NCBI GenBank assembly: GCA_949300145.1
Contig: CASGDA010000006.1
Span: 62,001 to 126,000, forward strand
Reading direction: 5' to 3'
Source: an uncultured Treponema sp.
GTDB taxonomy: Bacteria; Spirochaetota; Spirochaetia; Treponematales; Treponemataceae
DNA: 64,000 bases
Each line of letters starts with the position of its first letter. The stretch's first letter is position 1. The notes under the pieces were generated by a model. That model searched no databases. It saw nothing but the letters and a program-made list of their open reading frames with translations, and was not told the origin of the DNA. This document shows positions 1,208 through 21,329 of the stretch, piece after piece. Position numbers and translations under genes: made by a program.

Positions 1208-1218
1208 GTACACACTCC

Positions 1219-3935: not shown

Positions 3936-3937
3936 TC

Positions 3938-5545: not shown

Positions 5546-6074
5546 TTTCCCCGTTCCACTCTTCCGCGCTCCCGGACTTGGGCACAACCTCCACAACCGG
5601 GAGGATGTTTACCTGCGGCGCTTCCGTGCGGACAAGGTTGAGGTACTTGGCGTACAGCTCTATTGCCTTTATCTTGGGCACCAGCGTACCCAAAGCCTTT
5701 CCCCCTGCGCCCGGTATCACGGACGCAATGCAGTGCGCCCGGTCCCCAAGGGACGACACCGGGCGGAGACTGCCGTCATCGGCAAACAGATCCGCCGGGT
5801 TTGTCCGGATGATTGTCTCCAGCACGTGCAGGATGATATGCCGGTTCCTGAGGTCCCTTCCGTCCTGCGCCTCGGCAAGGCAGTCCGCTACGGCCTTGCG
5901 GATTTCCGGTTTTTCCATCAGCGTTTTTGCCGATTTCTTTGCGTGCTTCCCCCCGCCGTAAGCGGCCCGGTACGCCTTCTCCTCGTCAAGCCAGTTCTCC
6001 GGATTCGTGCAGTATTCCTGCACAAACCGCTTCTGCTTGTATGTCAGTTTTCCCGGATTCCCTTCCCCGTTCAT
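5532..6074 (-). CDS. terS: Terminase small subunit
   Basis: 180 residues. KLTYKQKRFVQEYCTNPENWLDEEKAYRAAYG near the N-terminus is the hallmark of the terminase_2-type small subunit helix-turn-helix, which recognises the packaging site and feeds DNA to the large subunit. ATG 6074 forms an ATGA overlap with the preceding gene. A longer in-frame reading exists but its first 52 residues are Arg/Gly-rich and lack family character. Confidence 0.85.
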   Translation of the reverse strand: MNGEGNPGKLTYKQKRFVQEYCTNPENWLDEEKAYRAAYGGGKHAKKSAKTLMEKPEIRKAVADCLAEAQDGRDLRNRHIILHVLETIIRTNPADLFADDGSLRPVSSLGDRAHCIASVIPGAGGKALGTLVPKIKAIELYAKYLNLVRTEAPQVNILPVVEVVPKSGSAEEWNGESDGQ

Positions 6075-6280
6075 CCCTTTTCTTCTCCCCCTCCGTCTTT
6101 TCCTGCGGGGTCCTCTTCCCGCGTATCCTGTCCCGGATCTGCCTTCTTCAGGACATTCTCCCATCCGAACAGCTGCCTGAACAGCTCCTCCGATTCCTCT
6201 TCCGTCAGCGGCTTCCCGCCGCCCAGCCATCCCGTGCCTTCCTTCCGGATCCTCTCCAGCGCTTCAAGGTCAATGTCCAT
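6071..6280 (-). CDS. Small unknown acidic phage protein
   Basis: 69 residues beginning MDIDLEALERIRKEG. It contains a short helical segment EEESEELFRQLFGW and a charged Gly/Glu/Lys tail. It lies between the helicase loader (11-base overlap) and terS (ATGA overlap), so it is translated as part of this operon. A G-rich stretch precedes the ATG. No family is recognised. Confidence 0.6.
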   Translation of the reverse strand: MDIDLEALERIRKEGTGWLGGGKPLTEEESEELFRQLFGWENVLKKADPGQDTREEDPAGKDGGGEEKG

Positions 6281-6974
6281 CCCGTGCCCCCTTCTTCCGC
6301 CAGTCCTCTCCGTCCACCCGGACAATCCGCGCATCCTGGCGGAACCTTGATATAATCGCGTCATTGAGCGACAGCTCAAAACACCCCGGACAACCGCCGG
6401 AAGGGCAGTCCCTCCGCAGGTGCTGGTTTGATATTAGCACGGTTTTGAGCCGTCGTGTATGCCTTTTGTCCAGCACATAGGACAGCGTGGCCGAAAGGTG
6501 TTCCGTCTGCTTTACTTTTTCCCACTCGTCAACCGCAAGGCACGGGACATGCGTCCAGCGGTCAAGCAGTGCGTCCTCCCCGCCGCGCGTTTTGTAGCTG
6601 TCCCGCAACCGGAGCCCCATCTCAAACGCCGTGAGTATCACGCCCCCTGTAGCCCGGATGACGGCGGACGCAAGGTGCGTTTTGCCAACGCCGTTACCGC
6701 CAAGCAGTACAAGCTTGAGGATTTTCCCGGACACAATGTCCCTTGCCGCCGCAAGCGCTTCCGCCTGTGATTCTGTCCGGCATACGTAGTTGTCAAGCGT
6801 TGCGTCCCGGTATTCCGGCTCAATATTCATCCGCCGCATGGCTTCCGCCTCCGCCCGTTCCGCCGCTTCCCTCTCCCTCCTCTGCATTTCGGCGTCCACG
6901 ACGTCGTCCCGCAGATAGCCTTTAAGGCATGACAGGTCCAAAAAACATGCGGCTTTTGTTTCTGCCGGCAACAT
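6270..6974 (-). CDS. DnaC-like AAA+ helicase loader
   Basis: 234 residues. An N-terminal Arg/Glu-rich helix (EMQRREREAAERAEAEAMRR) precedes a AAA+ core with Walker A GGNGVGKTH (about residues 93-101), Walker B PCLAVDEW, and sensor-like VLISNQH. This is the DnaC/IstB-type layout; such proteins load replicative helicase onto phage origins. CPSGGCPGCF near the C-terminus adds three cysteines. It sits downstream of a probable replication-initiation gene, as in many temperate phages. Confidence 0.8.
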   Translation of the reverse strand: MLPAETKAACFLDLSCLKGYLRDDVVDAEMQRREREAAERAEAEAMRRMNIEPEYRDATLDNYVCRTESQAEALAAARDIVSGKILKLVLLGGNGVGKTHLASAVIRATGGVILTAFEMGLRLRDSYKTRGGEDALLDRWTHVPCLAVDEWEKVKQTEHLSATLSYVLDKRHTRRLKTVLISNQHLRRDCPSGGCPGCFELSLNDAIISRFRQDARIVRVDGEDWRKKGARDGH

Positions 6975-6989
6975 AGCTCCCTCCTTGCG

Positions 6990-7595
6990 TCAAAAATACT
7001 GCGTGGGTACAACCGCCGCAGGGCTCCCGCGGATTGCAGGCTGCCTGCGTACCGCGTCAATCACCCACCGCCGGATGGTAAGGTAGTCGGACTTAGTCTT
7101 GTATCCCTTTTCCGCCTTGTAGGCAGAAAGATACTGTATGGCTTCGTCTGTGTCCCCTCCAAAATCAGCCTTGAGCCTGTCCATCTCTGTTTCCGTAAGG
7201 CGGATATTGTTGTATTCCCCCAGTGTTTTTTTACCGGATGAGGATTCATCCGGTGATACAACTTTCTCTTTCTCTTTCTCTTTATCTTTATCTTTATCTT
7301 TATCTTTTTGGTTGTTTTTTTCTTCTGTACAATCAACTTCCGGTTGTTTTTCCGCATTCCGGTTCCCTGCCGGTGCTCCGCCCATTCTTCCGTTTCTCTT
7401 CCGGCGGTTGTTTGCGTCAATCTGCGGCTTGATAAGGGCAAAAATAGCCTTTTCCGTCAATCCTGCACCTTCGTCCGGCTCCTTTTCGTTAAGGGCATAT
7501 TCGCATATCATGCAGAGCATGGACTTTGCCTCCCTGTCCGGCATGGACTTTATCGCTTCATAAAAAGAACGGTAAAAAACAAACCCTTCCGTCAC
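6990..7595 (-). CDS. Phage replication-initiation-like protein (DUF6291-like N-terminus)
   Basis: 201 residues. The N-terminus FVFYRSFYEAIKSMPDREAKSMLCMICEYAL matches a domain common in phage replisome-organiser proteins encoded just before DnaC-like loaders. The middle is a low-complexity Lys/Asp/Glu run of alternating KD then KE pairs encoded by hexanucleotide repeats (7262-7309). The C-terminal part (ETEMDRLKADFGGDTDEAIQYLSAYKAEKG) resembles the conserved C-terminal domain of such proteins. It probably binds the origin and recruits the loader. The exact family is uncertain. Confidence 0.65.
   Translation of the reverse strand: MTEGFVFYRSFYEAIKSMPDREAKSMLCMICEYALNEKEPDEGAGLTEKAIFALIKPQIDANNRRKRNGRMGGAPAGNRNAEKQPEVDCTEEKNNQKDKDKDKDKEKEKEKVVSPDESSSGKKTLGEYNNIRLTETEMDRLKADFGGDTDEAIQYLSAYKAEKGYKTKSDYLTIRRWVIDAVRRQPAIRGSPAAVVPTQYF
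7262..7309 (-). repeat. In-frame hexanucleotide repeat tract
   Basis: About eight tandem hexamers, of TCTTTC type then TCTTTA type on the plus strand, encode a run of Lys-Glu and Lys-Asp pairs within the replication gene. Each unit is two codons, so slippage changes linker length without breaking the frame. Confidence 0.8.
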
Positions 7596-7774
7596 CTTTC
7601 CCCTCCGTCATACAACGTATCGTTTACTTCCCGGCTTTTCAAAAGCCCCTTCTTTACATCCCGCAGGCAGCCGCCGCACATGTGCGCAACCTTCCCGCGG
7701 CTCCCCTTGGACACCAGAACGGGCACAAGTACAGATTCCCTCCCGCATACCGGGCATGTTCCCCGCTTATCCAT
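7592..7774 (-). CDS. Small zinc-ribbon protein
   Basis: 60 residues. Two CxxC pairs (CPVCGRE near the start and CGGCLRD about 25 residues later) indicate a structural zinc ribbon. The start overlaps the previous gene's stop (TGATG) and the end overlaps the next start (ATGA). It is probably a DNA- or protein-binding accessory of the early operon; function unknown. Confidence 0.7.
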   Translation of the reverse strand: MDKRGTCPVCGRESVLVPVLVSKGSRGKVAHMCGGCLRDVKKGLLKSREVNDTLYDGGER

Positions 7775-7938
7775 CAATCCGTTTCCTCCGGTCTTGGTAC
7801 TATACGCACCCATCTGTCGTTTTCCCCGTAGTCCAATTCAATGCTGTCTATGGGCGTGTCTTCTTTTCCTATAGTAACTTCGTCTTCCGGATCTGCACCA
7901 TACCGCATGAAATCCACTATCAACTCCAGTACCGTCAT
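7774..7938 (-). CDS. 54-residue phage protein
   Basis: A short gene of 54 residues starting MTVLELIVDFMRYGADPEDEV, preceded by a strong AGGAGG and joined to both neighbours by start/stop overlaps (ATGA upstream, TGATG downstream). That coupling is the main evidence that it is real. The protein is acidic and has no recognised family; LELIVDFMRYGADPEDEV followed by a DYGE-type segment recurs in small phage proteins. Confidence 0.7.
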   Translation of the reverse strand: MTVLELIVDFMRYGADPEDEVTIGKEDTPIDSIELDYGENDRWVRIVPRPEETD

Positions 7939-8303
7939 TCTTCACCTCCTTCTTTGTTGTCCTTGTTGTCCGGGGTAAAGGATTTGATTGCGTTTATGAC
8001 ATCCCTGCATAACGACTTCCACCTATTCTTCATAGTTTTAGCCCGTGTATGTATTGTTTGCAATTCGTAATACACGCCTCCAATTTCGCCACATTTCCCT
8101 GTCTCCGTGCTGAGTGGACATTTATCGCAACCATCGCTTTTGTCGATAAGCACATGACAGAAAAAATTGTCTCCGAGCCATCTTAATCCATGTTTTTCTG
8201 CGAATTTCTTTCGTATATATGAGGTATAACGGAACGGACTGTTTTTGATTTTCTTCCACATCTTAACAGCAAGTTTTCTTTCCTCTTCCGTAAAATTACG
8301 CAT
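7935..8303 (-). CDS. Unknown Cys-containing phage protein
   Basis: 122 residues. The N-terminal part is basic and helical (EERKLAVKMWKKIKNSPFRYTSYIRKKF in pieces). A middle cluster DGCDKCPLSTETGKCG could hold zinc. Strong Shine-Dalgarno AGGAGG is 7 bases before ATG. Its first 19 bases are repeated at 8552-8570. No function recognised. Confidence 0.65.
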   Translation of the reverse strand: MRNFTEEERKLAVKMWKKIKNSPFRYTSYIRKKFAEKHGLRWLGDNFFCHVLIDKSDGCDKCPLSTETGKCGEIGGVYYELQTIHTRAKTMKNRWKSLCRDVINAIKSFTPDNKDNKEGGEE

Positions 8304-8304
8304 T
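8286..8304. repeat. Direct repeat copy A (gene-start repeat)
   Basis: A 19-base sequence covering the ATG and first codons of the 7935-8303 gene recurs exactly at 8552-8570. See copy B. Confidence 0.85.
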
Positions 8305-8547
8305 CCTCTTCCTCCTTTGCAGCTCGGTCATCAGATAATGCGGGCACCGTGACGGCGGGATAGGATCTTCCGCAAGCCAGCATTCCCCCGTTACCTGGTC
8401 CCACGCGCCGCAGCCTGACCGTGCGCACGACATACGTTTTTTCTTAAGCTCCCGCGATATTTCAATCATCTCTTTCATTTCTTCTTCTGTGTATTCGTCC
8501 ATACCTGTTTCCCGTCCTGTATTTTCTCCATGTTTTTTATGTGGCAT
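8296..8547 (-). CDS. Small Cys-rich phage protein
   Basis: Up to 83 residues; an internal start at 8502 (MDEYTEEEMKEMIEISREL) would give 68. The C-terminal half contains CARSGCGAWDQVTGECWLAEDPIPPSRCPHY, with four Cys and one His suitable for metal binding. The end overlaps the next gene by 8 bases. No family recognised. Confidence 0.6.
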   Translation of the reverse strand: MPHKKHGENTGRETGMDEYTEEEMKEMIEISRELKKKRMSCARSGCGAWDQVTGECWLAEDPIPPSRCPHYLMTELQRRKRNA

Positions 8548-8551
8548 CCAA

Positions 8552-8570
8552 TTCCGTAAAATTACGCATT
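8552..8570. repeat. Direct repeat copy B with truncated gene start
   Basis: Exact 19-base copy of 8286-8304. On the minus strand it again has a ribosome-binding-like AGGA, an ATG and the codons MRNFTE, but the frame ends after 10 residues. It is a leftover gene start, probably from duplication or deletion by recombination. Confidence 0.75.
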
Positions 8571-8577
8571 GTTTTTC

Positions 8578-8847
8578 CTACCTTATTCTTTTTTTCCGTG
8601 ATTCCCTGAATTCATTTTCCATGTCTTTCATCAAAGTTTTACTTACATCAGACAAATTTCTTGCTGTAAACGCCGGAAGATTTTCCGAAAGGATACTTTC
8701 ATCCAGCGGAATTCCGTGAACACTGTCCATATGTTCGGACAGGCTTTGCCTGCTGTTCCCAAAGTCAGCCTTGCACGCAGGACATTTAAACCCCATCTCT
8801 CGCCTCCTGTACTCCATGCAGTCAATATTAAATGCCTCATTCAGCAT
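8578..8847 (-). CDS. C2H2-type zinc-finger protein with methyltransferase-like N-terminus
   Basis: 89 residues. CPACKADFGNSRQSLSEHMDSVH is a clear CxxC...HxxxxH zinc finger. The first 13 residues (MLNEAFNIDCMEY) instead look like the opening of a phage adenine DNA methyltransferase, which usually continues into a DPPY motif; here that is absent. There are two good ribosome-binding sites: AGGAGG 5 bases before ATG 8847 and another AGGAGG 6 bases before an internal ATG at 8796 (MGFKCPACK). The gene may be an in-frame deletion fusion, with the finger protein made from either start. Confidence 0.65.
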   Translation of the reverse strand: MLNEAFNIDCMEYRRREMGFKCPACKADFGNSRQSLSEHMDSVHGIPLDESILSENLPAFTARNLSDVSKTLMKDMENEFRESRKKRIR

Positions 8848-8877
8848 CCTTCCCTCCTGTATGCCGCGTTCCTTCTC

Positions 8878-10131
8878 TCATTTTTTCCTCCTGCATTCCT
8901 CCGCCGCAACGATTGCCCGGAACACCGGGTAAAACTGCTGCGGCACCACTGCATTCCCGAGGCATTTCAGCCTGTCAGACCTGTGTGCCGTCCCTGCTGC
9001 AAGCCGCGGGATGTCCGGTTCCGTATCCCAGTAATGGTTGATGATAAAATCTAAGTCTCCGTCCATCCCGGAGGAAAACCCATCAGCCATTCCACCCATT
9101 CCGGATTCAGCTGCCCGCCGTCGTCCCCCGTTATTACGCCCAGCTCTTCCATCTTCTCCATCTGCCGGTAACTCCCTGTTCCCCCGCACATTGCCGCACC
9201 CGTTGACGGTGTCGGGAACAACTCCCTCATTACGTCCCCGACCAGGGAATCCCTGTTGATCTGGCTCCGGGGCAGGGCACTGTTCTTCGCGTCCTGTGCA
9301 GTCGGCGTGTTGTACATCTTTACGGCACTCGGCAGGTCCGGGCTCCGCCGTCTTCTTTCTGCGGGACAATCCCCGCGCATATGGGCTTTCGGTGTAGGGA
9401 AGAGTTTTACCTGTCCGCTCAGGCTCGGTTCCCCGCGGCTGTTCACATGCATTTTCCTTCCTGCCGAATCCGACGCAACGGGCGTTTTCCATATTCTGGG
9501 CTCCTCCCACGCCTTCACCGTAGCCGGATCCACCTGCTCCCGTAAATTCGCGGGGCGGCTCCTCCCTTTCCGGCTTCCTTCCGCCTGCCGCATGAGGGCT
9601 GCCGGAGATCTCTGCGGAAGATGATCCATGGTGTTCGGCGTAGCCCACAATAGCGGTCCTGTACCGTCTGTGCCAGGCTCCGACAGCGCAAGCTGGTATA
9701 AGAAATACCCTTGTCCTATATCCGCAGGCTTCCAGTTCAGAAAGAATACCGGGGAGTGCCATCCGCACGATTCCAGCAACGTTTTCTCCAACAACCCAAG
9801 CAGGCCTGATTTCCCGGATAACCCTGACCATTTCCGGCCAGAGATAGCGGTCATCATCCTTGCCCCTTCGCTTCCCGGCAACAGAGAACGGCTGACAGGG
9901 GAATCCTCCGGAAATAACGTCAACTGTCCTTCTTCCTGTCCTTGCATAGAAACTTTCCCCTGTAAGCGTCCTTATATCCTTCCAGCGCGGGACGTCCGGC
10001 CAGTGCCTTTCCAGCACCTTTGCCGGGTATTCCGCCTGTTCGCACTGCCCTACCGTCCTGATCCCCGCCCACTCCGCCGCAAGGTCAAGCCCGCCTATGC
10101 CGGAAAAAAGGCTTAAGTGTGTCAGCGTCAT
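8878..10131 (-). CDS. Cytosine-5 DNA methyltransferase (overprinted)
   Basis: 417 residues. Motif I FSGIGG (9-14), motif [11 protein letters not shown] with catalytic Cys79, motif VI GENV (116-118), motif [14 protein letters not shown] (154-163) and a C-terminal [12 protein letters not shown] (near 390) are all present, so the enzyme looks complete. It would methylate cytosine in phage DNA, most likely against host restriction. The target-recognition part (about 165-375) is low in hydrophobics and carries repeated short motifs (GYAEHHG, ENARCVG, YTESPYA, HADCTGR, PDTVNGC). Almost all of residues 62-360 is also read in another frame by the nested gene. ATG 10131 is chosen over GTG 10140 from GGAGG spacing. 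Confidence 0.85.
9051..9947 (-). CDS. Overprinted PTP-repeat protein nested in the methyltransferase gene
   Basis: 298 residues read in a different frame of the same strand, wholly inside the methyltransferase gene. Five spaced motifs of the type xxTPxAxx occur (WATPNTMD 101-108, WKTPVASD 153-160, FPTPKAHM 183-190, YNTPTAQD 212-219, FPTPSTGA 244-251). The C-terminus is [16 protein letters not shown] (281-296). From memory, proteins with FPEDSP starts, PTPTA repeats and a [11 protein letters not shown] ending are common among phage-derived hypotheticals. GGGGAAAG lies about 6 bases before the ATG. Function unknown. It may be a real second product or a conserved shadow of the methyltransferase. 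Confidence 0.5.
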
Positions 10132-10505
10132 ATCGTCCACCCTCCGCCGAACTCCGGCAGCGGGTTTTCTGCGCTGTAAAACATATGCAGGCAGTTTTTA
10201 TCTATGTTCACGTATTCCGCCTCCGCCGGGAAAACCATGACGGCCTTCTTGTCCGGTCCGAAAAAATCCCGCTTCACGCGCTGCAGGTCCCCGTAGTCCG
10301 GGATCCTCGACTTGCGGGAAAACGAAACGTGCAGCCATTCCTTCCCGTCGCCGTAGATCCCCGCCGTAGCCAGTACGAACAGCCCGTTGCTCTCCCACGC
10401 CTTCGTGGTCTCCCATCCCAAAAGCTCCGAAATGTCGCGCCAGTACGGCGGCGGATCCGGGAAGAATGCCGCTTCGTTTATTGCAATGTCATGGATCCGT
10501 GTCAT
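10128..10505 (-). CDS. Conserved phage protein of early cluster
   Basis: 125 residues from [19 protein letters not shown]. The core [27 protein letters not shown] followed by [16 protein letters not shown] is a pattern I associate with a small uncharacterised domain found in phage genomes. The start lies 17 bases inside the HNH gene and the end overlaps the methyltransferase start by ATGA. Its place suggests a role in DNA metabolism, but no activity can be read from it. Confidence 0.65.
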
Positions 10506-10956
10506 TGCAGTCCTCCCCATCCGAAAAAGCAACCGGATCCTGTCCTTTGAGGATTTCAAGGATCATCAGCCCGACATCGTAGAGCCTGTCTTCCCTGCAC
10601 GCACGGAGAATTTCTTCCAGCAGGGGCTGTGTATACCGGACGGTATTCCATCGGAATGCGTCAAGAAGCTCAAGCGAAACTTCCCGCAGGGGATCCTGTT
10701 TGTACCAGTCCGTGTAAAATTTCTTTTTCCCGGCGTGGTACTGCGCATGGTGGTGCGCACACATGGTGTTTGCATTGTCCGGGAAAAACCGGAGCACACC
10801 GTTTGCACCTACGGAATAATAGTGGGAACACTGCAAGATCCCGCTGCACGGTGTCCCGTCCCTGACGACGCACATCCTGTCCCTGCGGACAATGGCGGCG
10901 TTGAATTCCCGCTGGACATCGATGATTTTTATTCCCTGTCTTTGTCTTTCCTTCAT
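10489..10956 (-). CDS. HNH/NinG-like nuclease-type protein
   Basis: 155 residues. CVVRDGTPCSGILQCSHYYS followed by NANTMCAHHHAQYH gives the Cys/His layout of an HNH-type fold similar to lambda NinG-family recombination proteins. It sits between the ERF cluster and the methyltransferase, which fits a role in recombination. The C-terminal half is helical and without motif. The assignment to NinG specifically is tentative. Confidence 0.6.
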   Translation of the reverse strand: MKERQRQGIKIIDVQREFNAAIVRRDRMCVVRDGTPCSGILQCSHYYSVGANGVLRFFPDNANTMCAHHHAQYHAGKKKFYTDWYKQDPLREVSLELLDAFRWNTVRYTQPLLEEILRACREDRLYDVGLMILEILKGQDPVAFSDGEDCNDTDP

Positions 10957-11357
10957 TCTCCGTTCCTCTCAACAAGATAAATCCCGAGCTCCGCCGCAAT
11001 ACGGTGCGCCGCTTCAATAAGCATGGCGCATTCGTCCGTACTTGACAGGGCCTCGCTCACCGGGTACATTTTCCCCCGGAACATTTCATAGGGATACCCC
11101 GTTTCCATTGCCGCTTCTTTTACGGCCATCTTTACCGTGGAAAAATCATTCCCCGTCTCCCTGCATATCTGCATGATATGCCCGTTCAGGTGGTGGTTCT
11201 GGCTGTACTTCCCGGTACTGCGCTTCCGTTTCGGCACCTTGAGGTCAGTACGGATGAATCCCGCACATTTTTCCATGCACACCGCTACGGTAAGCGCGTC
11301 TTCCGGCGTGTTTACCTCCAAAGCCAGCTCCCCGTCCCTGTAAGATATAATCCGCAT
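10953..11357 (-). CDS. Phage recombination-cluster protein of unknown function
   Basis: 134 residues. The central RSTGKYSQNHHLNGHIMQICRETGNDFSTVKMAVKEAAME (in pieces) recurs in phage early proteins near ERF/SSB genes and may be DNA-binding. The C-terminal SSTDECAMLIEAAHRIAAELGI is helical. Start ATG 11357 (MRIISYRDG) is preferred to 11366. It overlaps the HNH gene by ATGA. Confidence 0.6.
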   Translation of the reverse strand: MRIISYRDGELALEVNTPEDALTVAVCMEKCAGFIRTDLKVPKRKRSTGKYSQNHHLNGHIMQICRETGNDFSTVKMAVKEAAMETGYPYEMFRGKMYPVSEALSSTDECAMLIEAAHRIAAELGIYLVERNGE

Positions 11358-11372
11358 GACAGACATAAGGCG

Positions 11373-12083
11373 TCAGAAAATGTCGTCTTCCGGGAACGGG
11401 ATCTGTTCCGGTTCATCCGCGGCGGCGGACATGAGCGCCTCCGTCTTTTCCGCATATTCTTTCTTAACCTTGGAAAGAATTTCCTTTACAGGCATTTTCC
11501 CGTAAAGACTGCGGAACCGCTTCCTGTCCTCGTCCGTGAAGACGGCAGCTCCCTGCCAGTTTGATTTGAGGATGGCGGATATTTCGTCCGTAATCCTCTT
11601 TTTTTCGGCTTCCGCTACGGGCTCCCCTTTAGGCGGGTATGTGTTCCGCGCCTTTCCGGGCTGCGGGGCGGCGGACGGTTTTGCCGCGTGTTCCTGCGGA
11701 GAAACCCCGTCCGTATCCTCGTCCGATGAAAGCCCGAGCGCCGCGCAAAGGCAGTACCTCCGCATGTAGGTAATGGCAGCCCCTACATTCTGCGCGGCGT
11801 TGCTCTTGCCGACGGAAACTTCCGGGAGCGGGGCGGAATCCTCAATTGATTCCCCGTCCTCGGAAAAGATAACCGTCCGGATACAAAGCCGTCCGTCCTG
11901 CCCTGTAACAAACTGGGAAAAACCCAGCCCGTATTTTGCCAGTACGGGGCGGACGGCGGACACCACGGTGTCAAAATCCGTATACCGGTATCCGTACCCT
12001 TCTTTGTCTTTTGGCAGCGTGGAGAATTCCTTCTGTGCTGCGCAAAGCCTTGCGAAAATATTTCTTTCCTTTCCGCTTTCCAT
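11373..12083 (-). CDS. erf: ERF-family single-strand annealing protein
   Basis: 236 residues. EGYGYRYTDFDTVVSAVRPVLAKYGL and AAITYMRRYCLCAALGLSSDED are diagnostic of ERF proteins, which anneal complementary single strands in phage recombination. The variable C-terminal half is charged and ends in an acidic tail. Next to it are SSB and a PD-(D/E)XK nuclease, forming a complete recombination module. Confidence 0.88.
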   Translation of the reverse strand: MESGKERNIFARLCAAQKEFSTLPKDKEGYGYRYTDFDTVVSAVRPVLAKYGLGFSQFVTGQDGRLCIRTVIFSEDGESIEDSAPLPEVSVGKSNAAQNVGAAITYMRRYCLCAALGLSSDEDTDGVSPQEHAAKPSAAPQPGKARNTYPPKGEPVAEAEKKRITDEISAILKSNWQGAAVFTDEDRKRFRSLYGKMPVKEILSKVKKEYAEKTEALMSAAADEPEQIPFPEDDIF

Positions 12084-12097
12084 TTTCTCCTCCTCCG

Positions 12098-12475
12098 TCA
12101 GAACGGGATATTTTCTTCCGGGTCATCCGGAACGGCATACCCGGACGGCTGTCCTTTCCCCTGCCCGCCAAGCAGGTCCAGCTCCGCAACGTGTATCCGC
12201 ACGGCGCTCCTGTTTTCCCCGTTCCTGTCAGTCCATCTCTCCTGTCTCAGCCGCCCGCTAACGGCGACCTGTTTCCCTTTTGTTATGTACTGGCGGATAC
12301 CTTCCGCCAGTTTTCCCCAAACGACGCAGTCAAAAAAGCTGACGTACTCTTCCTTTCCGTAGCGCTCGTTGACTGCAACGGAAAAGGAAAGCTTGGCAGT
12401 CCCGGATGTCGTGTATCCGAAATCCCGGTCACTCTGGTCCCTTGTTACCCTTCCGATAAGAGTTACACTGTTCAA
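12098..12475 (-). CDS. ssb: Single-stranded DNA-binding protein (block 1)
   Basis: 125 residues with OB-fold signature SVTLIGRVTRD, YVSFFDCVVWGKLAEG and GKQVAVSGRLRQERW, ending in an acidic/Phe tip (DDPEENIPF) used to recruit partner proteins. The start is TTG, read as Met: GGAGG lies 6 bases upstream and the TTG overlaps the stop of the preceding 60-residue gene (TTGA). ATG-initiated alternatives would add unrelated residues. Confidence 0.88.
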   Translation of the reverse strand: MNSVTLIGRVTRDQSDRDFGYTTSGTAKLSFSVAVNERYGKEEYVSFFDCVVWGKLAEGIRQYITKGKQVAVSGRLRQERWTDRNGENRSAVRIHVAELDLLGGQGKGQPSGYAVPDDPEENIPF

Positions 12476-12654
12476 AGCATGTCCTCCATCTTTTTCATCA
12501 GATTTTCCAGTGATTCGTTGAGCAGGCGGATGTTGAATCCCTCCGCCGCCTTTGAATGGAACTCTGCGGACGCCCAGTCCCGCGCCTTTTCGGCACGGAC
12601 TGCTTCCTGAACCTGTGCGTCCTTCATCCGCACCAGGTATTCGCCGTAAGTCAT
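12472..12654 (-). CDS. 60-residue helical phage protein
   Basis: 60 residues, almost entirely helical (DAQVQEAVRAEKARDW, LLNESLENLMKKMED). ATGA overlap with the nuclease gene upstream and TTGA overlap with ssb downstream make translational coupling very likely. No family recognised. Confidence 0.65.
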   Translation of the reverse strand: MTYGEYLVRMKDAQVQEAVRAEKARDWASAEFHSKAAEGFNIRLLNESLENLMKKMEDML

Positions 12655-13520
12655 TCATCGGCCTCCTGTTTTTGCAGTTTTTGTGCAAAATCGCAGAACG
12701 CACGTACCGGACAGTAATCAAGGCATTTTGTGGACACGCCCTGACGGAACTCGACGTAATGCCCGGCGCCCAGCGTTTCCGCCATGGCCTCCGCTTCCGC
12801 TTCGGACGGGAACACCCGGACGGCGCTCTTCCGCCCTTTCTTCATCACCGCCCATGTGTCGTCCTTTGCCCACCTCTCTTCTTTCGTGCAGTCCGGGATG
12901 TCCTCTTCTTCCAAAAGAAGGTAGGAAAAGACTTCAACTACCTTTTCCTCTATCCGGATTTCCGTTTCTGCAATGTCCTTGTCCGTCACGTCAAACTCGT
13001 AGACGTAGACGGGCTCCTGCGGGTACTCCGGATTGCGCCTTGCCTGTGTCTTGCTGTGGTCTTTAAGCAGGGCAACGAACCGGCACTTCTTTGCCGGAAG
13101 TCCGTTTTTCCGGCAAAGCCAGGCGTAAGTAAGCCCTTGTTTTTTCCAATCAGAAAAGTCCCGGAACTGGACCTTCCATACGGACGCCGTTTTGTAGTCC
13201 GTTATGGTTCCGGTCTCCATATTGTAGTTGTCGATGGTGCCGGTGACCGTGAATCCGGGAGCCTCTGTCTTGAGGGTTTCTTCCGTGAATTCATTATCTC
13301 CCTCTTTTTCCAGCAGTGCATGGACGGCTGTCCCGAAAACCGCCCACACCCGGTTGGACACATCGTCCTCGATATCGTTCCAATATCTCCGGGTGAGGAT
13401 TATCTCCTTAACCCCCTTTAACAGGGTCGTTGCCGACAGCTCCCATGCCTTGTTGTGCTGCTCCGTGCTGCACGCGGCAACAAACCCGTGCGGCAACCCT
13501 TTTTTGTTTGTGAGCGTCAT
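12651..13520 (-). CDS. PD-(D/E)XK nuclease (RecB/Cas4-like)
   Basis: 289 residues. FGTAVHALLE, then TGTIDNYN and TITDYKTAS form the nuclease core with the catalytic Asp...Asp-x-Lys pattern. A C-terminal CLDYCPVRAFC cluster resembles the Fe-S-binding cysteines of Cas4/AddB-type nucleases. It would resect phage DNA ends for the ERF annealing protein. ATG 13520 is chosen because GGAGGGAAAAG precedes it. It is the first gene of block 1's leftward operon. Confidence 0.8.
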   Translation of the reverse strand: MTLTNKKGLPHGFVAACSTEQHNKAWELSATTLLKGVKEIILTRRYWNDIEDDVSNRVWAVFGTAVHALLEKEGDNEFTEETLKTEAPGFTVTGTIDNYNMETGTITDYKTASVWKVQFRDFSDWKKQGLTYAWLCRKNGLPAKKCRFVALLKDHSKTQARRNPEYPQEPVYVYEFDVTDKDIAETEIRIEEKVVEVFSYLLLEEEDIPDCTKEERWAKDDTWAVMKKGRKSAVRVFPSEAEAEAMAETLGAGHYVEFRQGVSTKCLDYCPVRAFCDFAQKLQKQEADE

Positions 13521-13537
13521 TCTTTTCCCTCCGCGCA

Positions 13538-13606
13538 AAAAAAAACACCGGCTGCTGCACGCACGGATAAAATGCAACAGCCGGTGCATTGTTTTTTTTC
13601 TTTTTT
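13538..13606. terminator. Bidirectional rho-independent terminator-like hairpin
   Basis: CACCGGCTG (13546-13554) pairs with CAGCCGGTG (13578-13586); after one mismatch the stem gains 4 more pairs. An A-run precedes it and a T-rich run follows, so it can stop transcription on either strand. It insulates the leftward operon of block 1 from whatever lay upstream. Confidence 0.8.
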
Positions 13607-13612
13607 CCCGTG

Positions 13613-13650
13613 CATAAGACATCAGTCTTATGCTTATGACATTAACGCTT
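13613..13650. other. Block 1 / block 2 junction with short palindrome
   Basis: A perfect palindrome CATAAGAC-ATCA-GTCTTATG (13613-13632) marks the point where composition changes abruptly from GC-rich to AT-rich. The next gene on the right is missing its N-terminal domain. No integrase, att-like direct repeat or tRNA is seen here, and no matching sequence occurs at the other end of block 2 (31.3-31.45 kb). Confidence 0.6.
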
Positions 13651-14297
13651 ATTTTTCACAAGGAGACAGCTTCAAAAGCGTTGAAATTGCGCCGGAAGAC
13701 AAGATTTTAAGTTTTCTTACAAAACTTGCTGAACAGCGCGGCGTATTTCTTTCTAATGCGCAGGATGGTTCTTTGCTTATTTGGAAGCCAGAACAGGAAG
13801 AAGTAAGCGCAACTTTTAAGGAAGGTGAACAGCCTTTTATTTCCTGCGTTCCGACTTTGGATGGGCAGAAAATGTATAGCCATGTAACAGGCTTTACGAA
13901 GGTTGATGCAGACAATGATTCTGAAAAATATACATTTGAAAACGATTATTTGATTAAGCACGGCGTTTTGCGCTGTTATTCAAAAGTTATGCAGGATGTT
14001 GAAGCTGGCGGGCTTGAAAATGCAGTTAAGGCAATGGCAGGGCGTATGTTTGCCAGTGCGGTTAAATACACACTTACTGTTGCGGGTTGTAGGGATAAAA
14101 ACGGCAAACTGTACCGCAAGAATATGATGGTCAGTGTACTTGCGCCGGACGCAGAGATTTACAAGGAAACAAAGCTGCAAGTTGATGAAGTGCAGCTGAA
14201 ACGGAGCGAAAGCGAAGGTGAACAAACCGTTTTTTCTTTGGTTATTCCTGGAAGCAGAACGGGCGAATTAAACGGGGGTTTTGCATGGGAAGAATAG
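13641..14297 (+). pseudogene. Mu gp44-like baseplate hub protein, 5'-truncated
   Basis: About 218 codons remain. The sequence from INAYFSQGDSFKSVEIAPEDKI through the VAGCRDKNGKLYRKNMMVSVLAPDA region resembles the central and C-terminal domains of the gpP/Mu gp44 baseplate hub, but the first roughly 100 residues of the family are absent. Codons upstream of 13641 belong to block 1 composition and to the palindrome. The frame stays open upstream only by chance. The end overlaps the next gene by 13 bases, as in an intact tail operon. Confidence 0.7.
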
Positions 14298-15070: not shown

Positions 15071-15547
15071 ATGGATTTGAGCAAAACAGAATTTGCCGGA
15101 GATGTACTTTTAAGCGGCGCAGACGGCATGGGAAACATTGTTATTGAAGACGGCCTTGTTAAAGACTGCCGTAATTTTTCTACGGCGGTTTATTTGTCTT
15201 TATTTGGCGGAAACGCAAGAGACAGCGCGGGGCGTGAAAATGAAACATGGTGGGGCAACCTTATTCCAGGAACAAAGAAAAATGAAAAGCTGGTTTCTTC
15301 TTTTTATGCGATTGTAAACGGCTTTCCGCTCAATTCAAACAACATAAAAAAGGCGGTAGCAGCTGCAAAAGATGATTTAGGTTGGATGCTTGAAGAAGGA
15401 ATTGCAGATGAAATTGAGACTGCAATTTTTGCAACAAACGCAAAAAAAGTGGAATTTACAGTTCATATAACAAAGAACGGCGCAGACGTTCTTAAAGATA
15501 CATACGGCTTTCAATGGCAGGGGGCAATAGATGGCTTACGAGAATAA
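15071..15547 (+). CDS. Mu gp46-like baseplate wedge protein
   Basis: 158 residues. DSAGRENETWWGNLIPG near residue 60 and the alternating beta pattern fit the GP46 family, small baseplate wedge proteins of contractile-tailed phages. It overlaps the following baseplate J gene by 17 bases. Confidence 0.75.
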   Translation: MDLSKTEFAGDVLLSGADGMGNIVIEDGLVKDCRNFSTAVYLSLFGGNARDSAGRENETWWGNLIPGTKKNEKLVSSFYAIVNGFPLNSNNIKKAVAAAKDDLGWMLEEGIADEIETAIFATNAKKVEFTVHITKNGADVLKDTYGFQWQGAIDGLRE

Positions 15548-16754
15548 AACTGTTGAATATGTTTACAATTTAATACTTACTTCCTTGCAGGAAAAGTTTA
15601 ATAACAGGCTTAGACCTTTGCCAAAAGCATTTATTATTGTGCTTGCAAAAGTTTTGTCTGCTATTTATATAATTCCATTCAAATTGTGCGGATGGTTTTT
15701 GCTTCAGATTTTCCCGGACACTGCAAGCTATAGCAAAGTGAATGTTTTAGGGCATACAATACGCCCCCTGGTTAAACTTGGCGATCAGTTCGGAGTTCAA
15801 CGCCCGATGGAAGGCAAGGCTTGGCAGGGCGTTATAATTGTTAAAAGGCTTGCTGAAAACAAGGTTATTGCGCTTGGCACTCAATTAAAAAGTGATATTA
15901 CAGGGTTTATTTATTGCGTTTCTGAAAGCGTGGAACTTGACGAAGACGAAAAGCGGGTTGAAGTTTATTGCACAGAAACTGGAATTGACGGAAACCTTGC
16001 AGACGGTGACGTTCTTACTTTTGTGAACCCGATTGATTACGTAGAAAAAAATGCTGAAGTTGCAGAAACAACAGTAACAGGCACAGACGATGAAACTGAA
16101 GAAAGCTACAGGCGGCGCGTTGTGAACAGATACAGTACACAGCCACAGGGCGGGGCTTTGGCAGATTACAGAATCTGGGCTTACGATGTTGCGGGCGTTT
16201 TACAGACATATCCGTATAATGACGAAAATTCACCGGGCGGCGTAATTATTTATGTTTCCGGAACTACAGATTTGTACCCTACGCGCGTGCCAGATTCCGC
16301 GCTTTTAATTGCGGTTGGCAAAGCGTGTACTTATGACCCGGACACTGGAGCTGCAAACAGAAAGCCATTGACTGCAATTCTGGATCCACAAGGAAATGAA
16401 ACTTACCCGAATGTTAAAGCCGTTAACATTACGCATTTTAATGTGTATGTAACCGGGCTTACAGGCGTTACAGCTCAAGATTTTGGCGAATCGCTTAAAT
16501 CGGAGCTGGAGACTTATTTTAAAAACAGAGAGCCTTATATCAGAGGTTTAAGCAATGATAATAACCGCACAGATTCTATTCTGCGCAATTCCCTTATTGC
16601 AACAGTAAACAGCATTGCTTTAAGTCTGAAAGCAACTTTTGACACTGTAACAATGAATATCAACGGCCCTGTAATAGCTGAATACACACTTGGAAAAGGT
16701 GAACTTGCAGCGTTAGGCGACCTTTATATTAACGGGGTGATTTATGAGGGCTAG
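15531..16754 (+). CDS. Baseplate assembly protein J (Mu gp47-like)
   Basis: 407 residues. The middle GTDDETEESYRRRVVNRYSTQPQGGALADYRIWA (in pieces) is the conserved core of baseplate J proteins. The N-terminal helix region and C-terminal domain are both present, so it looks complete. It forms the wedge ring that connects to tail fibres. It overlaps the next gene by 11 bases. Confidence 0.85.
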   Translation: MAYENKTVEYVYNLILTSLQEKFNNRLRPLPKAFIIVLAKVLSAIYIIPFKLCGWFLLQIFPDTASYSKVNVLGHTIRPLVKLGDQFGVQRPMEGKAWQGVIIVKRLAENKVIALGTQLKSDITGFIYCVSESVELDEDEKRVEVYCTETGIDGNLADGDVLTFVNPIDYVEKNAEVAETTVTGTDDETEESYRRRVVNRYSTQPQGGALADYRIWAYDVAGVLQTYPYNDENSPGGVIIYVSGTTDLYPTRVPDSALLIAVGKACTYDPDTGAANRKPLTAILDPQGNETYPNVKAVNITHFNVYVTGLTGVTAQDFGESLKSELETYFKNREPYIRGLSNDNNRTDSILRNSLIATVNSIALSLKATFDTVTMNINGPVIAEYTLGKGELAALGDLYINGVIYEG

Positions 16755-17460
16755 TTTTTTAGATGCGATTAAACACCTTCTTCCTAGCGGCCCTGCATGG
16801 AATATTACAAATAAAACCGATTTGCGGCGACTGTTTGAAGCCATTGCGGTTTTGCCAGAAAAACTGCGTACAGAGATTGAAAATGTTTATATGGATTATT
16901 TCGCCGATTCTACGCGCGAGCTGAAGAAATGGGAAGATGTTTTTACTGTAATTTTTACAAAAGCGGAATTAGAGCAGCGCAGGAAAGTTTTGTCTTTGCT
17001 TTGGAGTATGAACCAGGGCGGACAAAGCAAAGATTTTTTACAATCGGTTTTACAAGGAATTTTTCCGGAAATTATTGTAGAAGAAAATATCCCGTGCGCA
17101 AATCCTAGACAGGCAAACATTGCTTATTTTTGCGTTTGCGACAATTCGGTTATGGTTTGCGGAAACTCAAAAGCCTGCTGCGATTATCGCGAAGGCGATG
17201 AAACTTTTATTCCTACAATTTTGCGCAACGATACTGCAAGCCCGTATTCAATCCCGAATGATGCGGATTATTGGGCTTTCTGTTTTTATGTGTGCAAAAG
17301 AGTTGTAAGAAATTCGCGCAATGAAATTCTTTATATCGAAAAATTACAAATTCCAATTCTTTATAAAAATTATATTGAATATCTGATTCTGCGCATTAAG
17401 CCTGTGCATACTGTTGCGGTAATGGCTGTGGAATGGATAGAGGAGCAAAACAATGATTAA
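16744..17460 (+). CDS. Mu gp48-like / DUF2313 tail protein
   Basis: 238 residues. The start SFLDAIKHLLPSGPAWN and the following ELKKWEDVFTV are characteristic of the gp48/YmfQ-type baseplate proteins that close the wedge. The C-terminal VKPVHTVAVMAVEW-like ending also fits. It lies between baseplate J and the fibre-associated genes with short overlaps on both sides. Confidence 0.75.
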   Translation: MRASFLDAIKHLLPSGPAWNITNKTDLRRLFEAIAVLPEKLRTEIENVYMDYFADSTRELKKWEDVFTVIFTKAELEQRRKVLSLLWSMNQGGQSKDFLQSVLQGIFPEIIVEENIPCANPRQANIAYFCVCDNSVMVCGNSKACCDYREGDETFIPTILRNDTASPYSIPNDADYWAFCFYVCKRVVRNSRNEILYIEKLQIPILYKNYIEYLILRIKPVHTVAVMAVEWIEEQNND

Positions 17461-18034
17461 GATTGACGGTAATTACACAGACTTTAGGGATGATACAGAT
17501 GAAAAATATCCGTATGGAAAAGCCGTTGCTGCAAGTACGCCAAACAGTACAGACGGTACACCGTGGCGCGTTATGTTTTTTAACGATTTGCACGGAGCAA
17601 GGCAGGCAATTTTCAAAAAAGCGTTTAACGGAACAGAGCGCACACCTTCCAATCAGCCGGATAATATCGAAAATTCAGACTTGCTAGATGCACTTTTAAA
17701 AATCATTAGCGATGCTTTTTCTTCCAGGATTTTTAGCGTGGAAATATCCGGCACAGATGCCGTTATTCCGTGGAACGACTTAAACATTGAATACGATGCG
17801 GAAAAAACTTATGCCGCGATTGTTACGCCAGCCGGAAACTATGAAGAGTTTTTGCCGTTTGGAACTGAATGTAAATCAGACGGCTTGCACATTTACCCCC
17901 GCCGTTTGATTAACGGAAAAATTGTTTCTGGAACCCGGCATAAAAAATGGGGAACAAGAAAATGGGGCATTGGAAAATGGAATGACTATGATTCAATGAA
18001 AGTAAATTTGCAGTTTGCAGAAGTTGAATCATAA
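17453..18034 (+). CDS. Tail fibre-associated protein of unknown function
   Basis: 193 residues. GTPWRVMFFNDLHGARQAIFKKAFNGTE in the N-terminal third is typical of proteins encoded just before tail-fibre genes in Mu-like phages of host-associated bacteria. The C-terminus has a short Trp/Gly repeat (KKWGTRKWGIGKWND). It probably links baseplate and adhesin. No precise family is known to me. Confidence 0.6.
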   Translation: MIKIDGNYTDFRDDTDEKYPYGKAVAASTPNSTDGTPWRVMFFNDLHGARQAIFKKAFNGTERTPSNQPDNIENSDLLDALLKIISDAFSSRIFSVEISGTDAVIPWNDLNIEYDAEKTYAAIVTPAGNYEEFLPFGTECKSDGLHIYPRRLINGKIVSGTRHKKWGTRKWGIGKWNDYDSMKVNLQFAEVES

Positions 18035-18077
18035 AAAAAACAATAAATTGCGGCTTACCGCAAAAAGGAGTTTAAGC

Positions 18078-18356
18078 ATGGTAGGAGTACCGAAGTATTG
18101 CCAGACAAAGAAAGACTGGCAAAATGCTGTTGATTATGCGGTTAAGCATAATACGGGCAAAACAGAATTGTACAGTCGTTTGCAGCATTTGCGCGACGAC
18201 CACTACATGAACGTTTTAAAAGAAGAAAGCAAAGAAAAGCCTGTTGAAGAGCAGACCCCGGAAGACTACGAACCTGTAGACAATCCGGCTGCTGAAAAAT
18301 ACAGGATTGGAATTACAGACGAAGAAATTGAAAACATGATGGAGACCCTTAAATGA
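18078..18356 (+). CDS. Small protein preceding the DGR target gene
   Basis: 92 residues. AAAGGAG precedes ATG 18078; the stop overlaps the start of the variable adhesin gene (ATGA), so the two are probably co-translated. The N-terminal half is basic and helical; the C-terminal half is acidic with Pro/Glu (KPVEEQTPEDYEPVDNPAAE). It may be a chaperone or assembly factor for the adhesin, by analogy with small genes that accompany tail fibres (inference). Confidence 0.6.
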   Translation: MVGVPKYCQTKKDWQNAVDYAVKHNTGKTELYSRLQHLRDDHYMNVLKEESKEKPVEEQTPEDYEPVDNPAAEKYRIGITDEEIENMMETLK

Positions 18357-19552
18357 GTTTAACTTTATACAAAGACCTTGTTGACGATTGTTCAGTTGCT
18401 TGCATTCCAGAAAGCGGAAATGTTAAATCTGTAAAGGCCGCTTTTTTGGAAAAGCAGAATCCTTTTGAATACGATGCAGACATTTTGAAGTTTGCTGAAG
18501 GTGTAGGAATTCCAATCTGGAACGGTGAAACATGGATTCAGACAATTAACCGTGAAGAATTCACTTTTAACCCTGCAAGTTTGCTTGATACAGGCAATGA
18601 GCTTGAATTTGGTGTTGATTACTGGGTTTATATCTGCATGGACGGCGGAAGCCCGGAAATTGTCGTTTCTAAAAACGAGAGCTTCCCGGACGGTTCAACG
18701 GCCTTGACTTCACGCAAAATAGGTCATTTCTATTATGGAATTATCCGCAAGGTTTCAAATGACGGGCTTTGGATTCCGATTGATTCAGCCGGAAATAAGT
18801 TTGGATCAAGTGGCACAAAATGGCAGGACAATGTAACAGTCGGCATTGTTCCTAATTCAATTTGGGATTTGAAGCATAAGCCTAAAATTTCACATCCTGG
18901 ACTTGTCGAAGTGAACGGCATTTGGATGGGTGCATTCCAGGCAAGCGCAGAAGAAGCCTTTTCCTTTATGGGCGGCACAAACGGCTTGCATATAAAGAGC
19001 GGAAAACTTGCTACAAAATACGGCGCAATTCCTGTTACTGGAAGCGAAGGAATGAACCAGTTTACATTCAACGAAATCGCGCATAAACAGGGCTTGCGTT
19101 TGCCGCTTTATGCAGAATGGCTTGCCGGAGCTTTTGGCAGCCCGCAGGGTGAAGACGGTTCAAATAATTATGGTTGGACTAAAACAACCAACACAGGCAG
19201 AACTTATACAGGCGTAGGTGTAAACACATCAACTGGCAAGCGCGATACTGTAAACGGCGTTAAACCTTATGCAATAAGTGCTTACAATTTGCACGATTGC
19301 GCCGGAAATGTTGCAGAATGGACTTCTGATTATTCAATCAGACAGGACTCTACAAGCTGGGATTGGCAGAATGTTTTAGGGGCAGGAATGGGCCAGGCGT
19401 ATTTGCCGTTTGCAAACGGTTTATCTGCGCTGATTTGCGGGCACTACTGGCACAGCGGTGTTCGCTGCGGCCCTCGTTCCGTGGTCGCGAGCAACTTCCC
19501 GTGGTACGTGAGCACGTACTTCGGGGCGCGGCTTGCCTGTGACGCAGCGTAA
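18353..19552 (+). CDS. DGR target: C-type-lectin/FGE-fold tail adhesin with variable repeat
   Basis: 399 residues. The N-terminal 190 residues are a beta-rich phage tail domain. The C-terminal half is a formylglycine-generating-enzyme-like C-type lectin fold: GIWMGAFQAS, LRLPLYAEWLAGAFGSP, CAGNVAEWTSDYS, then the variable surface GHYWHSGVRCGPRS to GARLACD. The last 50 or so codons are the variable repeat, whose changed codons correspond to AAC in the template. It is the last gene of the baseplate/tail cluster and therefore probably the receptor-binding protein of the phage, like Mtd of Bordetella phage. The TAA stop lies in the loop of a hairpin. Confidence 0.9.
   Translation: MSLTLYKDLVDDCSVACIPESGNVKSVKAAFLEKQNPFEYDADILKFAEGVGIPIWNGETWIQTINREEFTFNPASLLDTGNELEFGVDYWVYICMDGGSPEIVVSKNESFPDGSTALTSRKIGHFYYGIIRKVSNDGLWIPIDSAGNKFGSSGTKWQDNVTVGIVPNSIWDLKHKPKISHPGLVEVNGIWMGAFQASAEEAFSFMGGTNGLHIKSGKLATKYGAIPVTGSEGMNQFTFNEIAHKQGLRLPLYAEWLAGAFGSPQGEDGSNNYGWTKTTNTGRTYTGVGVNTSTGKRDTVNGVKPYAISAYNLHDCAGNVAEWTSDYSIRQDSTSWDWQNVLGAGMGQAYLPFANGLSALICGHYWHSGVRCGPRSVVASNFPWYVSTYFGARLACDAA
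19397..19546 (+). repeat. DGR variable repeat (VR)
   Basis: Aligns base-for-base with the template at 20011-20160 (constant offset 614). Between 19442 and 19521 there are 14 differences, every one at a template A (changes to C, T and G all seen). The first 42 bases after 19399 and the GC-rich last 22 (19522-19543) are identical. The latter is the likely initiation-of-mutagenic-homology segment. Confidence 0.93.
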
Positions 19553-19559
19553 GCTGCGT
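19542..19559 (+). other. Post-VR hairpin/cruciform with GTAA loop
   Basis: ACGCAGC (19542-19548) and GCTGCGT (19553-19559) form a perfect 7-bp stem with a 4-base GTAA loop, right after the VR end. Bordetella phage DGRs need such a hairpin next to VR for efficient retrohoming. Here the stop codon TAA is part of the loop. Confidence 0.8.
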
Positions 19560-19607
19560 TCTGTTCTCTGTTTATCTGAATATCTGGTTTTCTTTGTGAG
19601 GTAACAA

Positions 19608-19976
19608 ATGGATTTTTCGCAAGAGAAACACCCTGCCGGGAGTGTGTGGAATCTGTTGCTTTTTCAGAAATTCTACGATTTTGATGTGTACTTTGAGCCG
19701 ATTATAGAACGCTTTCCAGCGTTTGAAAAATCGGCTTGGTGCGCACAAATTAAAAACACTTTGATAGACACGATAAAACTGATTTTGATAACAAACAAAG
19801 CCCGTGACAAAATGCCGGGTTGGTATAAAGTAGACACCAATTTGGAGCTGCTTAAAATCTATATCCGGCGTATGCGTCAAAAGAAATATCTCTCAACCCG
19901 AACTTATGAAACGGCAGTAAAGCGTCTTGCAGAGATAGGTAAGATTCTAGGCGGTCTTATCAATCGTAAAAACTAA
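19608..19976 (+). CDS. avd: DGR accessory variability determinant (Avd)
   Basis: 122 residues, basic and all-helical (LWNLLLFQKFYDFDVYFEP-like first helix, later DTNLELLKIYIRRMRQKKYLS and TYETAVKRLAEIGKILGGL), the four-helix-bundle profile of Avd. Avd forms a positively charged pentamer that binds the reverse transcriptase and template RNA. GAGGTAAC precedes the ATG. Gene order target-avd-TR-RT is the classical one. Confidence 0.85.
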   Translation: MDFSQEKHPAGSVWNLLLFQKFYDFDVYFEPIIERFPAFEKSAWCAQIKNTLIDTIKLILITNKARDKMPGWYKVDTNLELLKIYIRRMRQKKYLSTRTYETAVKRLAEIGKILGGLINRKN

Positions 19977-19988
19977 CATTTTTTACGA

Positions 19989-20248
19989 AAAGGCAGCTGA
20001 AACAAAATTGGCATATTTGCCGTTTGCAAACGGTTTATCTGCGCTGATTTGCGGGAACAACTGGAACAACGGTGTTCACTGCGGCCCTCGTACCGTGAAC
20101 GCGAACAACTACCCGTGGAACGTGAACACGAACATCGGGGCGCGGCTTGCCTGTGACGAATGTAAAATTGTTAAAAAAAAGGCATACGCTGTTAATTACG
20201 GTTTCAGCGTAGTGACGATTTATTTTTAACGTCAGTTCGGCTGCCTTT
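19989..20248 (+). ncRNA. Template RNA domain with long-range closing stem
   Basis: Bases 19989-20001 pair with 20236-20248 (13 pairs with one G-U), bracketing the whole template repeat. Inside, 3' of the template, TACGCTG (20185-20191) and CAGCGTA (20205-20211) form a 7-bp hairpin. These fit the structured spacer region that DGR template RNAs need for priming. The folding is read by eye from complementarity, not computed. Confidence 0.65.
20011..20160 (+). repeat. DGR template repeat (TR)
   Basis: The invariant donor copy. Its mutable core (20056-20135) holds ten AAC codons among 25 adenines, of which 14 are altered in VR. An open frame across it (20008-20229) is not a gene but a copy of the adhesin C-terminus. 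Confidence 0.93.
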
Positions 20249-20277
20249 GCACGGTATTTGTTGTGCTAAAGTCTTAG

Positions 20278-20312
20278 ACCAGAAAGGCTACGCGCTTTTC
20301 TGGTTATTTTTT
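20278..20312 (+). terminator. Terminator-like hairpin between TR and reverse transcriptase
   Basis: ACCAGAAA (20278-20285) pairs with TTTCTGGT (20297-20304), followed by a run of T. It lies 10 bases before the reverse transcriptase start. It could release the template RNA and lower RT expression, or be the 3' domain of the template RNA. Confidence 0.65.
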
Positions 20313-20321
20313 AAGTGAATA

Positions 20322-21329
20322 ATGATGGATAAACCTATATTTAGTGAAGTTTACGATTTTGAGAATTTGTATTGTGCAGCTTATGAAACTATACAGGATA
20401 AAAAGTATTATCCAGAAGAATTACAATTTGCAAGCAACCTCGAAGAAGAGTTGATTAAATTGCAAAATGAACTAATCTGGCATTCATACATTCCTGGCGA
20501 CTATTACTATTTTTGGGTTTATGATCCGAAAAAGCGGTTAATTTGCGCTCCAGAACTTAGAGATAGAATTGTTCATACTGCTGTTTGCAGGGTGATTGAA
20601 AGATATATTGAACCGCGTCTGGATTATGATTCTTATGCTTGTAGAAAAGGAAAAGGCACGCTGGATGCAGCGAATAGAGCCGGGCTTTATGCAAACAAAT
20701 ATTCTCATTTTGTATATTTTGACATTAAGGGGTTCTTTGACAGTATTCCAGTTTTGCCACTTGAAGAAGTATATTTAAAACGTTTTGTAGATGATTCTGA
20801 AATAATGTGGCTGTTGCATACAATCTTTATGAAAGATTGTAACGGCGTAGGTATAAAGAAAGGATGCAGAACAAGTCAGCTTTCAGCAAATGTTTATTTA
20901 AATGAATTAGACCATTTTATCCGGCATACACTTAAAGCAAAGGCGTATGTTCGATATATGGATGATTTTATAATCTTCAGTAATGACGTGGAATATCTGA
21001 AGTTTTGCTGGGCTGAAATAGCACGGTTCCTGGAAGAAAAATTATTTTTAAAACTGAATGATAAAACTTTTATTGGCGTGACTTCACAAGGATTTGAATT
21101 TGTGGGTTATAGGATTTTTAAGGATTATAAAATCATACGGAAAACAGCCTTAGACAGAAGCTCAAAAACAATAAAGGCATGGAAGGACGGCAAAGTTGAT
21201 GATTTATCCTTTTATCGGAGTACGGCAAGCCGTGTAGGACATTGCCAGGGTACGGCTAGTTATAAATGGTACTGCGAATATTTATTAAAAGCGTTGAAGT
21301 TTGTTCTAATAGACAGGAAAGAAGAATAA
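20322..21329 (+). CDS. DGR reverse transcriptase
   Basis: 335 residues. Palm motifs are intact: FDIKGFFDSI with catalytic Asp134, and YMDD at 212-215. RTSQLSANVYLNELD (183-197) has the SQ that marks DGR-type enzymes. There is no maturase or endonuclease domain, as expected. It copies the template RNA with misincorporation at A and produces the cDNA that replaces VR. It is convergent with the minus-strand genes that follow. Confidence 0.93.
   Translation: MMDKPIFSEVYDFENLYCAAYETIQDKKYYPEELQFASNLEEELIKLQNELIWHSYIPGDYYYFWVYDPKKRLICAPELRDRIVHTAVCRVIERYIEPRLDYDSYACRKGKGTLDAANRAGLYANKYSHFVYFDIKGFFDSIPVLPLEEVYLKRFVDDSEIMWLLHTIFMKDCNGVGIKKGCRTSQLSANVYLNELDHFIRHTLKAKAYVRYMDDFIIFSNDVEYLKFCWAEIARFLEEKLFLKLNDKTFIGVTSQGFEFVGYRIFKDYKIIRKTALDRSSKTIKAWKDGKVDDLSFYRSTASRVGHCQGTASYKWYCEYLLKALKFVLIDRKEE

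Follow-up and report, generated by a model that had tools for sequence, protein, structure and literature searches.

The stretch analysed here, the window, comprises 64,000 nucleotides of a contig from an uncultured Treponema sp.; coordinates are window positions unless prefixed C6, which refers to the same contig. A whole diversity-generating retroelement (DGR) lies at 18353-21329 in a prophage of this Treponema-related gut bacterium, with target gene, variable repeat (VR), post-VR hairpin, avd, template repeat (TR) and reverse transcriptase (RT) all present and in order, as the first-pass annotation of the sequence had proposed (Table 1). Avd was recognised by Pfam (PF22296 bAvd, 1.5e-20), by PHROG 3206 (Avd) and by PDB matches to 4dwl and 8ub7_B. 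RT matched PF00078 (RVT_1, 2.4e-21) and PHROG 1423 (3e-91), its best solved relative being the BPP-1 bRT (PDB 8ub7_A, 1.1e-40), and the YMDD and SQ motifs reported earlier could be read off the sequence at 20955-20966 and 20874-20879, respectively. This was the single RT match in the whole genome, and VR was likewise single, other matches being due to chance. Minus-strand genes for a primase, ParA/ParB-like proteins and a single-strand-binding protein adjoin the cassette on the DGR phage side (24035-29713).

Table 1. Position of the DGR parts and of the neighbouring tail genes in the window.
Feature	Position	Strand	Remarks
3′ half of baseplate-hub gene	13661..14297	+	severed by inserted prophage; starts with right copy of 17-bp repeat (13661-13677)
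Upstream baseplate operon	15071..18356	+	gp46-like, baseplate J, gp48-like, two small ORFs (Pfam, PHROG)
Target gene	18353..19552	+	399 aa, Mtd-like receptor-binding tail protein (predicted)
VR	19397..19546	+	ungapped alignment with TR; reliable end about 19544
Post-VR hairpin/cruciform	19542..19559	+	7-bp stem, GTAA loop with target stop codon
avd, accessory variability determinant	19608..19976	+	122 aa
TR	20011..20160	+	22 mutable codons, 11 AAC, 0 stop-capable
Structured RNA region 3′ of TR	20180..20249	+	two covarying helices, conserved UUACGGU loop and GUCAG
Terminator-like hairpin with T run	20277..20312	+	between TR and RT; helix 3 of covariation set
DGR reverse transcriptase	20322..21329	+	335 aa, YMDD, SQ

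VR and TR align without gaps at a constant offset of 614, in agreement with the first-pass annotation, and differ at 16 positions, every one of them a template A (7 A-to-T, 6 A-to-G, 3 A-to-C). To the 14 core differences already described, the alignment adds one at each edge (19399 and 19545). Since the difference at 19545 falls within the hairpin stem, past reliable homology, and may have an origin other than the DGR, 15 is the safer count; A makes up 33 of 148 template bases, and the probability of 15 out of 15 differences falling on A by chance is about 1.7e-10. The in-frame AAC codons of TR, first counted as 10, number 11, nine of which are changed in VR. Substitution cannot create a stop codon at any template A, and the theoretical protein diversity of the template is about 1e18.

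The hairpin that follows VR, acgcagc-GTAA-gctgcgt, has a perfect stem. In related phages the stem letters differ, with pairing retained in most, and the loop is mostly a 3-nt GTA. For BPP-1 and further phage DGRs, a four-base GRNA loop has been described, along with a stem whose structure matters and whose sequence does not (PMC3240598). Our scan found no post-VR hairpin in 8 of 40 loci (L069, L073, L074, L083, L093, L094, L102 and L106), which still have adenine-biased TR/VR pairs.

Between TR and RT, an alignment of 20 sequences revealed three helices with covariation. The covariation score was 0.756, compared to 0.268 after shuffling (0 of 500 shuffles as high); 92.7% of the cells were paired, against 36-45% in slid controls, and 18 of 21 pairs had changed on both sides, including 5 of the 5 counted pairs of the third helix. 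The latter is a stem with a T run on its 3′ side, about ten bases upstream of the RT start, and we describe it as a putative terminator-like element. A covariance model (R1) had the post-TR region as its sole match in the window (75.1 bits, 3.2e-19, the window sequence being part of the training set), and it also matched, directly 3′ of TR, three loci outside the training set (L094, L091 and L092). It gave no match in the BPP-1 spacer or in the four other phage DGR regions searched, and no known Rfam family was found in the window or around TR. As the model misses the BPP-1 spacer, we do not claim the likeness to its hairpins that can be seen by eye.

The target was assigned to PHROG 11262 (tail) and to Pfam PF21916 (mtd_2nd domain, 7.8e-14) and PF03781, with a C-terminus of the FGE/C-type-lectin fold. 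An AlphaFold model, built from a 36-sequence alignment (mean pLDDT 82.6), had all five Mtd structures as its top PDB matches (Foldseek best 2e-17; VIA-align Z 27.5-27.7 over about 303 residues, rmsd 3.1-4.0). TvpA, TaqVP and formylglycine-generating enzymes came next at Z 10-12, mainly over the C-terminal domain. Identity to BPP-1 Mtd is about 26% (tblastn). By this full-length match of the model, the target is an Mtd homologue and, by analogy with Mtd, would bind a host receptor. When ten close sequences are compared, 13 protein positions take at least four states, and 12 of them belong to VR. Codon 337 (19361-19363), which is 5′ of VR and outside TR, varies between D, N, G and A in close relatives.

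A DGR-type RT, a VR at the 3′ end of a gene and a C-type-lectin variable domain make the element a DGR, and Avd with an Mtd-like tail target makes it one of the BPP-1 type. We hold with high confidence that it is a BPP-1-type phage DGR, an intact cassette diversifying a tail-tip protein, in a carrier phage that is probably defective. The arrangement is already known, that of the textbook BPP-1 type, and not a new kind of DGR. With the Bordetella phage BPP-1 (mtd-avd-TR-brt) it shares gene order, Mtd-fold target, Avd, RT (34% identity, tblastn), a stop-overlapping hairpin after VR and adenine mutagenesis (PMC3240598; PMC12875486). Both elements have structured RNA between TR and RT, but the model of the window structure does not find the BPP-1 spacer. 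It differs in residing in a contractile-tail phage of a Treponema-related host, in its hairpin loop (GTAA in the window and mostly GTA in relatives, versus GRNA) and in the terminator-like hairpin before RT, which is not evident in the BPP-1 spacer. Tailed phages such as Bacillus phage BalMu-1, Vibrio phage VP585 and Pseudoalteromonas phage ACA1 have DGR-like regions with RTs 36-39% identical to that of the window; in BalMu-1, ACA1 and others inspected, RT comes after a small avd-like or Avd-annotated gene and a tail or unknown gene, but no relative of the target was found in phages of this type at 1e-5.

In BPP-1 the spacer, once folded, brings in the bRT-Avd complex, and cDNA is primed from one of the spacer's adenines (PMC12875486). 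In the window phage, the structured 3′ RNA would hold the TR transcript for an RT-Avd complex, which would copy it and place random bases wherever the template has an adenine. In this way as many as about 22 residues could be changed at the tip of the receptor-binding tail protein and, with them, presumably the host surface that is bound. We infer that the DGR acts in living cells.

The state of the carrier phage is a separate matter. Similarity to all 4 relatives compared begins exactly at 13661. The DGR phage continues elsewhere on this contig: its other half, with capsid, sheath, tape measure, DNA-circularisation protein and the 5′ half of the LysM-bearing hub gene, is at about C6:17816-33528. 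The two halves are separated by an insert of 42,132 bases, C6:33529-75660 (window 1-13660, continuing on the left to C6:33529; L044 from 9529 onward). Its G+C content, in the part within the window, is about 46-60%, compared to about 40% in the DGR phage. A DDE transposase gene lies at its left end (PHROG 8463, 4.5e-36), the ends read TGT...ACA and share the inverted subterminal sequence GTTAATGTCATA, and the 17-bp direct repeat AGGAGACAGCTTCAAAA flanks the whole, being single in relatives, with one base different. In Mu-like phages the flanking direct repeat is usually 5 bp, so 17 bp is long. A chimeric assembly was considered as the cause of the 13661 junction and judged unlikely, because the missing phage half lies beyond the insert on the same contig and the 17-bp repeats match at both ends. 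A transposable phage thus inserted into the hub gene of the DGR phage, at about codon 217 of 429, leaving the cassette untouched. The first-pass annotation had taken the target for a Mu-like tail adhesin: the baseplate genes are indeed of Mu type, and the DGR phage was seen to be Mu-like in these genes only, but the transposase-bearing Mu-like phage is the separate insert.

Because the baseplate-hub gene is split by this 42.1-kb second prophage, the DGR prophage copy is probably defective and unable to make working tails as it stands; it would be either defective or workable only with complementation or once the insert has been excised. The DGR operon may also have been severed from its upstream promoter. 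It is therefore conceivable that the DGR was functional in the lineage and is dead in this lysogen since the second prophage cut operon and hub, the insert being upstream of the DGR and on the same strand. This is a serious contender, although we incline slightly against it: every part of the cassette is intact and open; VR departs from TR at template adenines only, which makes a recent insertion probable; avd-TR-RT may be served by a promoter of its own; and the inserted phage might excise. It is compatible with the BPP-1-type reading of the lineage and departs from it solely on how this copy stands today. Two of the points made here, the nested prophage and the terminator-like element, would not be expected by a specialist.

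The Treponema-family DGR that we found described in the literature is the cellular system of T. denticola. Like the window element, the TvpA DGR has a related host, a C-type-lectin variable protein and an RT with TR and VR (PMC4891356). One could thus imagine a cell-surface DGR of this kind lying beside phage genes by happenstance, as the cassette has relatives in Treponema MAGs and the C-terminal fold of the target also matches TvpA (Z 12.2). We find this very improbable. The T. denticola DGRs have cellular, often lipoprotein targets, several per genome, with an accessory gene between TR and RT, and are reported without phage association, phage genes not being nearby (PMC4891356), whereas the window has avd before TR and one phage tail target that sits among phage genes. 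That target is the last gene of an operon with gp46-, J- and gp48-like baseplate genes, matches Mtd over its full length, is syntenic in viral contigs and has an N-terminus in which no lipoprotein signal can be seen by eye. The contrast with the T. denticola lipoprotein, drawn beforehand from its place at the close of a baseplate operon, was thus supported.

Evidence for the process itself comes from related phages. Nine close relatives with both repeats (RT identity 89-98%), mostly metagenome assemblies, were collected from Treponema-related MAGs and IMG/VR contigs, and compared together with the window and the more distant L006. At the 28 positions that are A in every TR of these eleven phages, pairwise difference was 0% in TR and 60% in VR, the comparison spanning related phages and not isolates of one strain; at 105 non-A positions, divergence was 5.6% in TR and 5.5% in VR. 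For pairs of TRs with different bases at a non-A site, 139 comparisons were made, and in 108 of them each VR carried the base of its own TR; these comparisons are not independent, the sequences being related. As VR matches its own TR at non-A sites, overwriting of VR from TR appears to have been repeated since the phages diverged, in concerted evolution, which is an indirect argument for RT-dependent TR-to-VR transfer in cells. In L030 (3174-3321), VR positions 72, 81 and 84 have the window-type bases, absent from its own TR, as if the segment had been acquired from the TR of another phage or by recombination.

Adenines at third codon positions were mutated in 10 of 21 cases, all synonymous, at a rate similar to other adenines, which points to mutation and not to selection on the protein alone. 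In a wider set of 41 distinct TR/VR pairs, 512 of 545 substitutions (94%) fell on template A, which represents 21% of the template; the substitution rate was 0.457 at A and 0.003-0.016 at other bases. The expectations that VR would vary at template adenines and TR remain invariant thus both held among relatives. Ordinary gene conversion, or duplicated repeats under diversifying selection without mutagenic reverse transcription, would agree with the positive selection expected at a likely exposed tail-protein tip, but is hardly credible and even less so than a cell-surface DGR, being contradicted by the adenine bias of the 41 pairs, with changes nearly confined to template A, synonymous sites included, and by the conservation of RT, Avd, hairpin and structured RNA along with the TR/VR pair. 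Together, the 41 pairs and nine close relatives give this element unusually good comparative backing and make up a solid natural data set on a phage DGR of the Treponema family.

We finally considered host range. Our literature search found no description of this phage lineage. The window prophage is 95% identical over 7.7 kb to a prophage in the genome of L002, the other aligned stretches being 74-93% identical, and each of the two shares a contig with the RNA polymerase genes of its genome. The host proteins are only 68% (RpoC), 76% (RpoB) and 82% (EF-Tu) identical, and the L002 host belongs to another genus. Near-identical prophages next to such divergent RNA polymerase and EF-Tu proteins indicate that hosts of different genera are lysogenised by closely similar phages. 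Such a pattern fits tropism switching, short of proof that the DGR causes the spread; switching would help the phage lineage to enter several host genera.

A broader scheme can be put forward tentatively, and we rather doubt it as a whole. The template RNA would be a separate non-coding RNA, its 3′ end fixed by the terminator, with RT expressed through readthrough only and template and Avd in excess, and tropism switching would lead near-identical phages to lysogenise different genera. The conserved terminator-like hairpin before RT offers a testable idea for how the template-to-enzyme ratio is set, and the occurrence of near-identical phages in more than one host genus allows the relation of host range to tail diversification to be tested. 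Across the 274 family genomes that were searched, the target was detected in 10 genomes of 3 genera. On one contig of about 45 kb (G215:C41, loci L120, L133 and L134), the target lies at one end and two matches resembling its C-terminus lie near the other, a layout that may be due to a second repeat or to the phage genome being circular.
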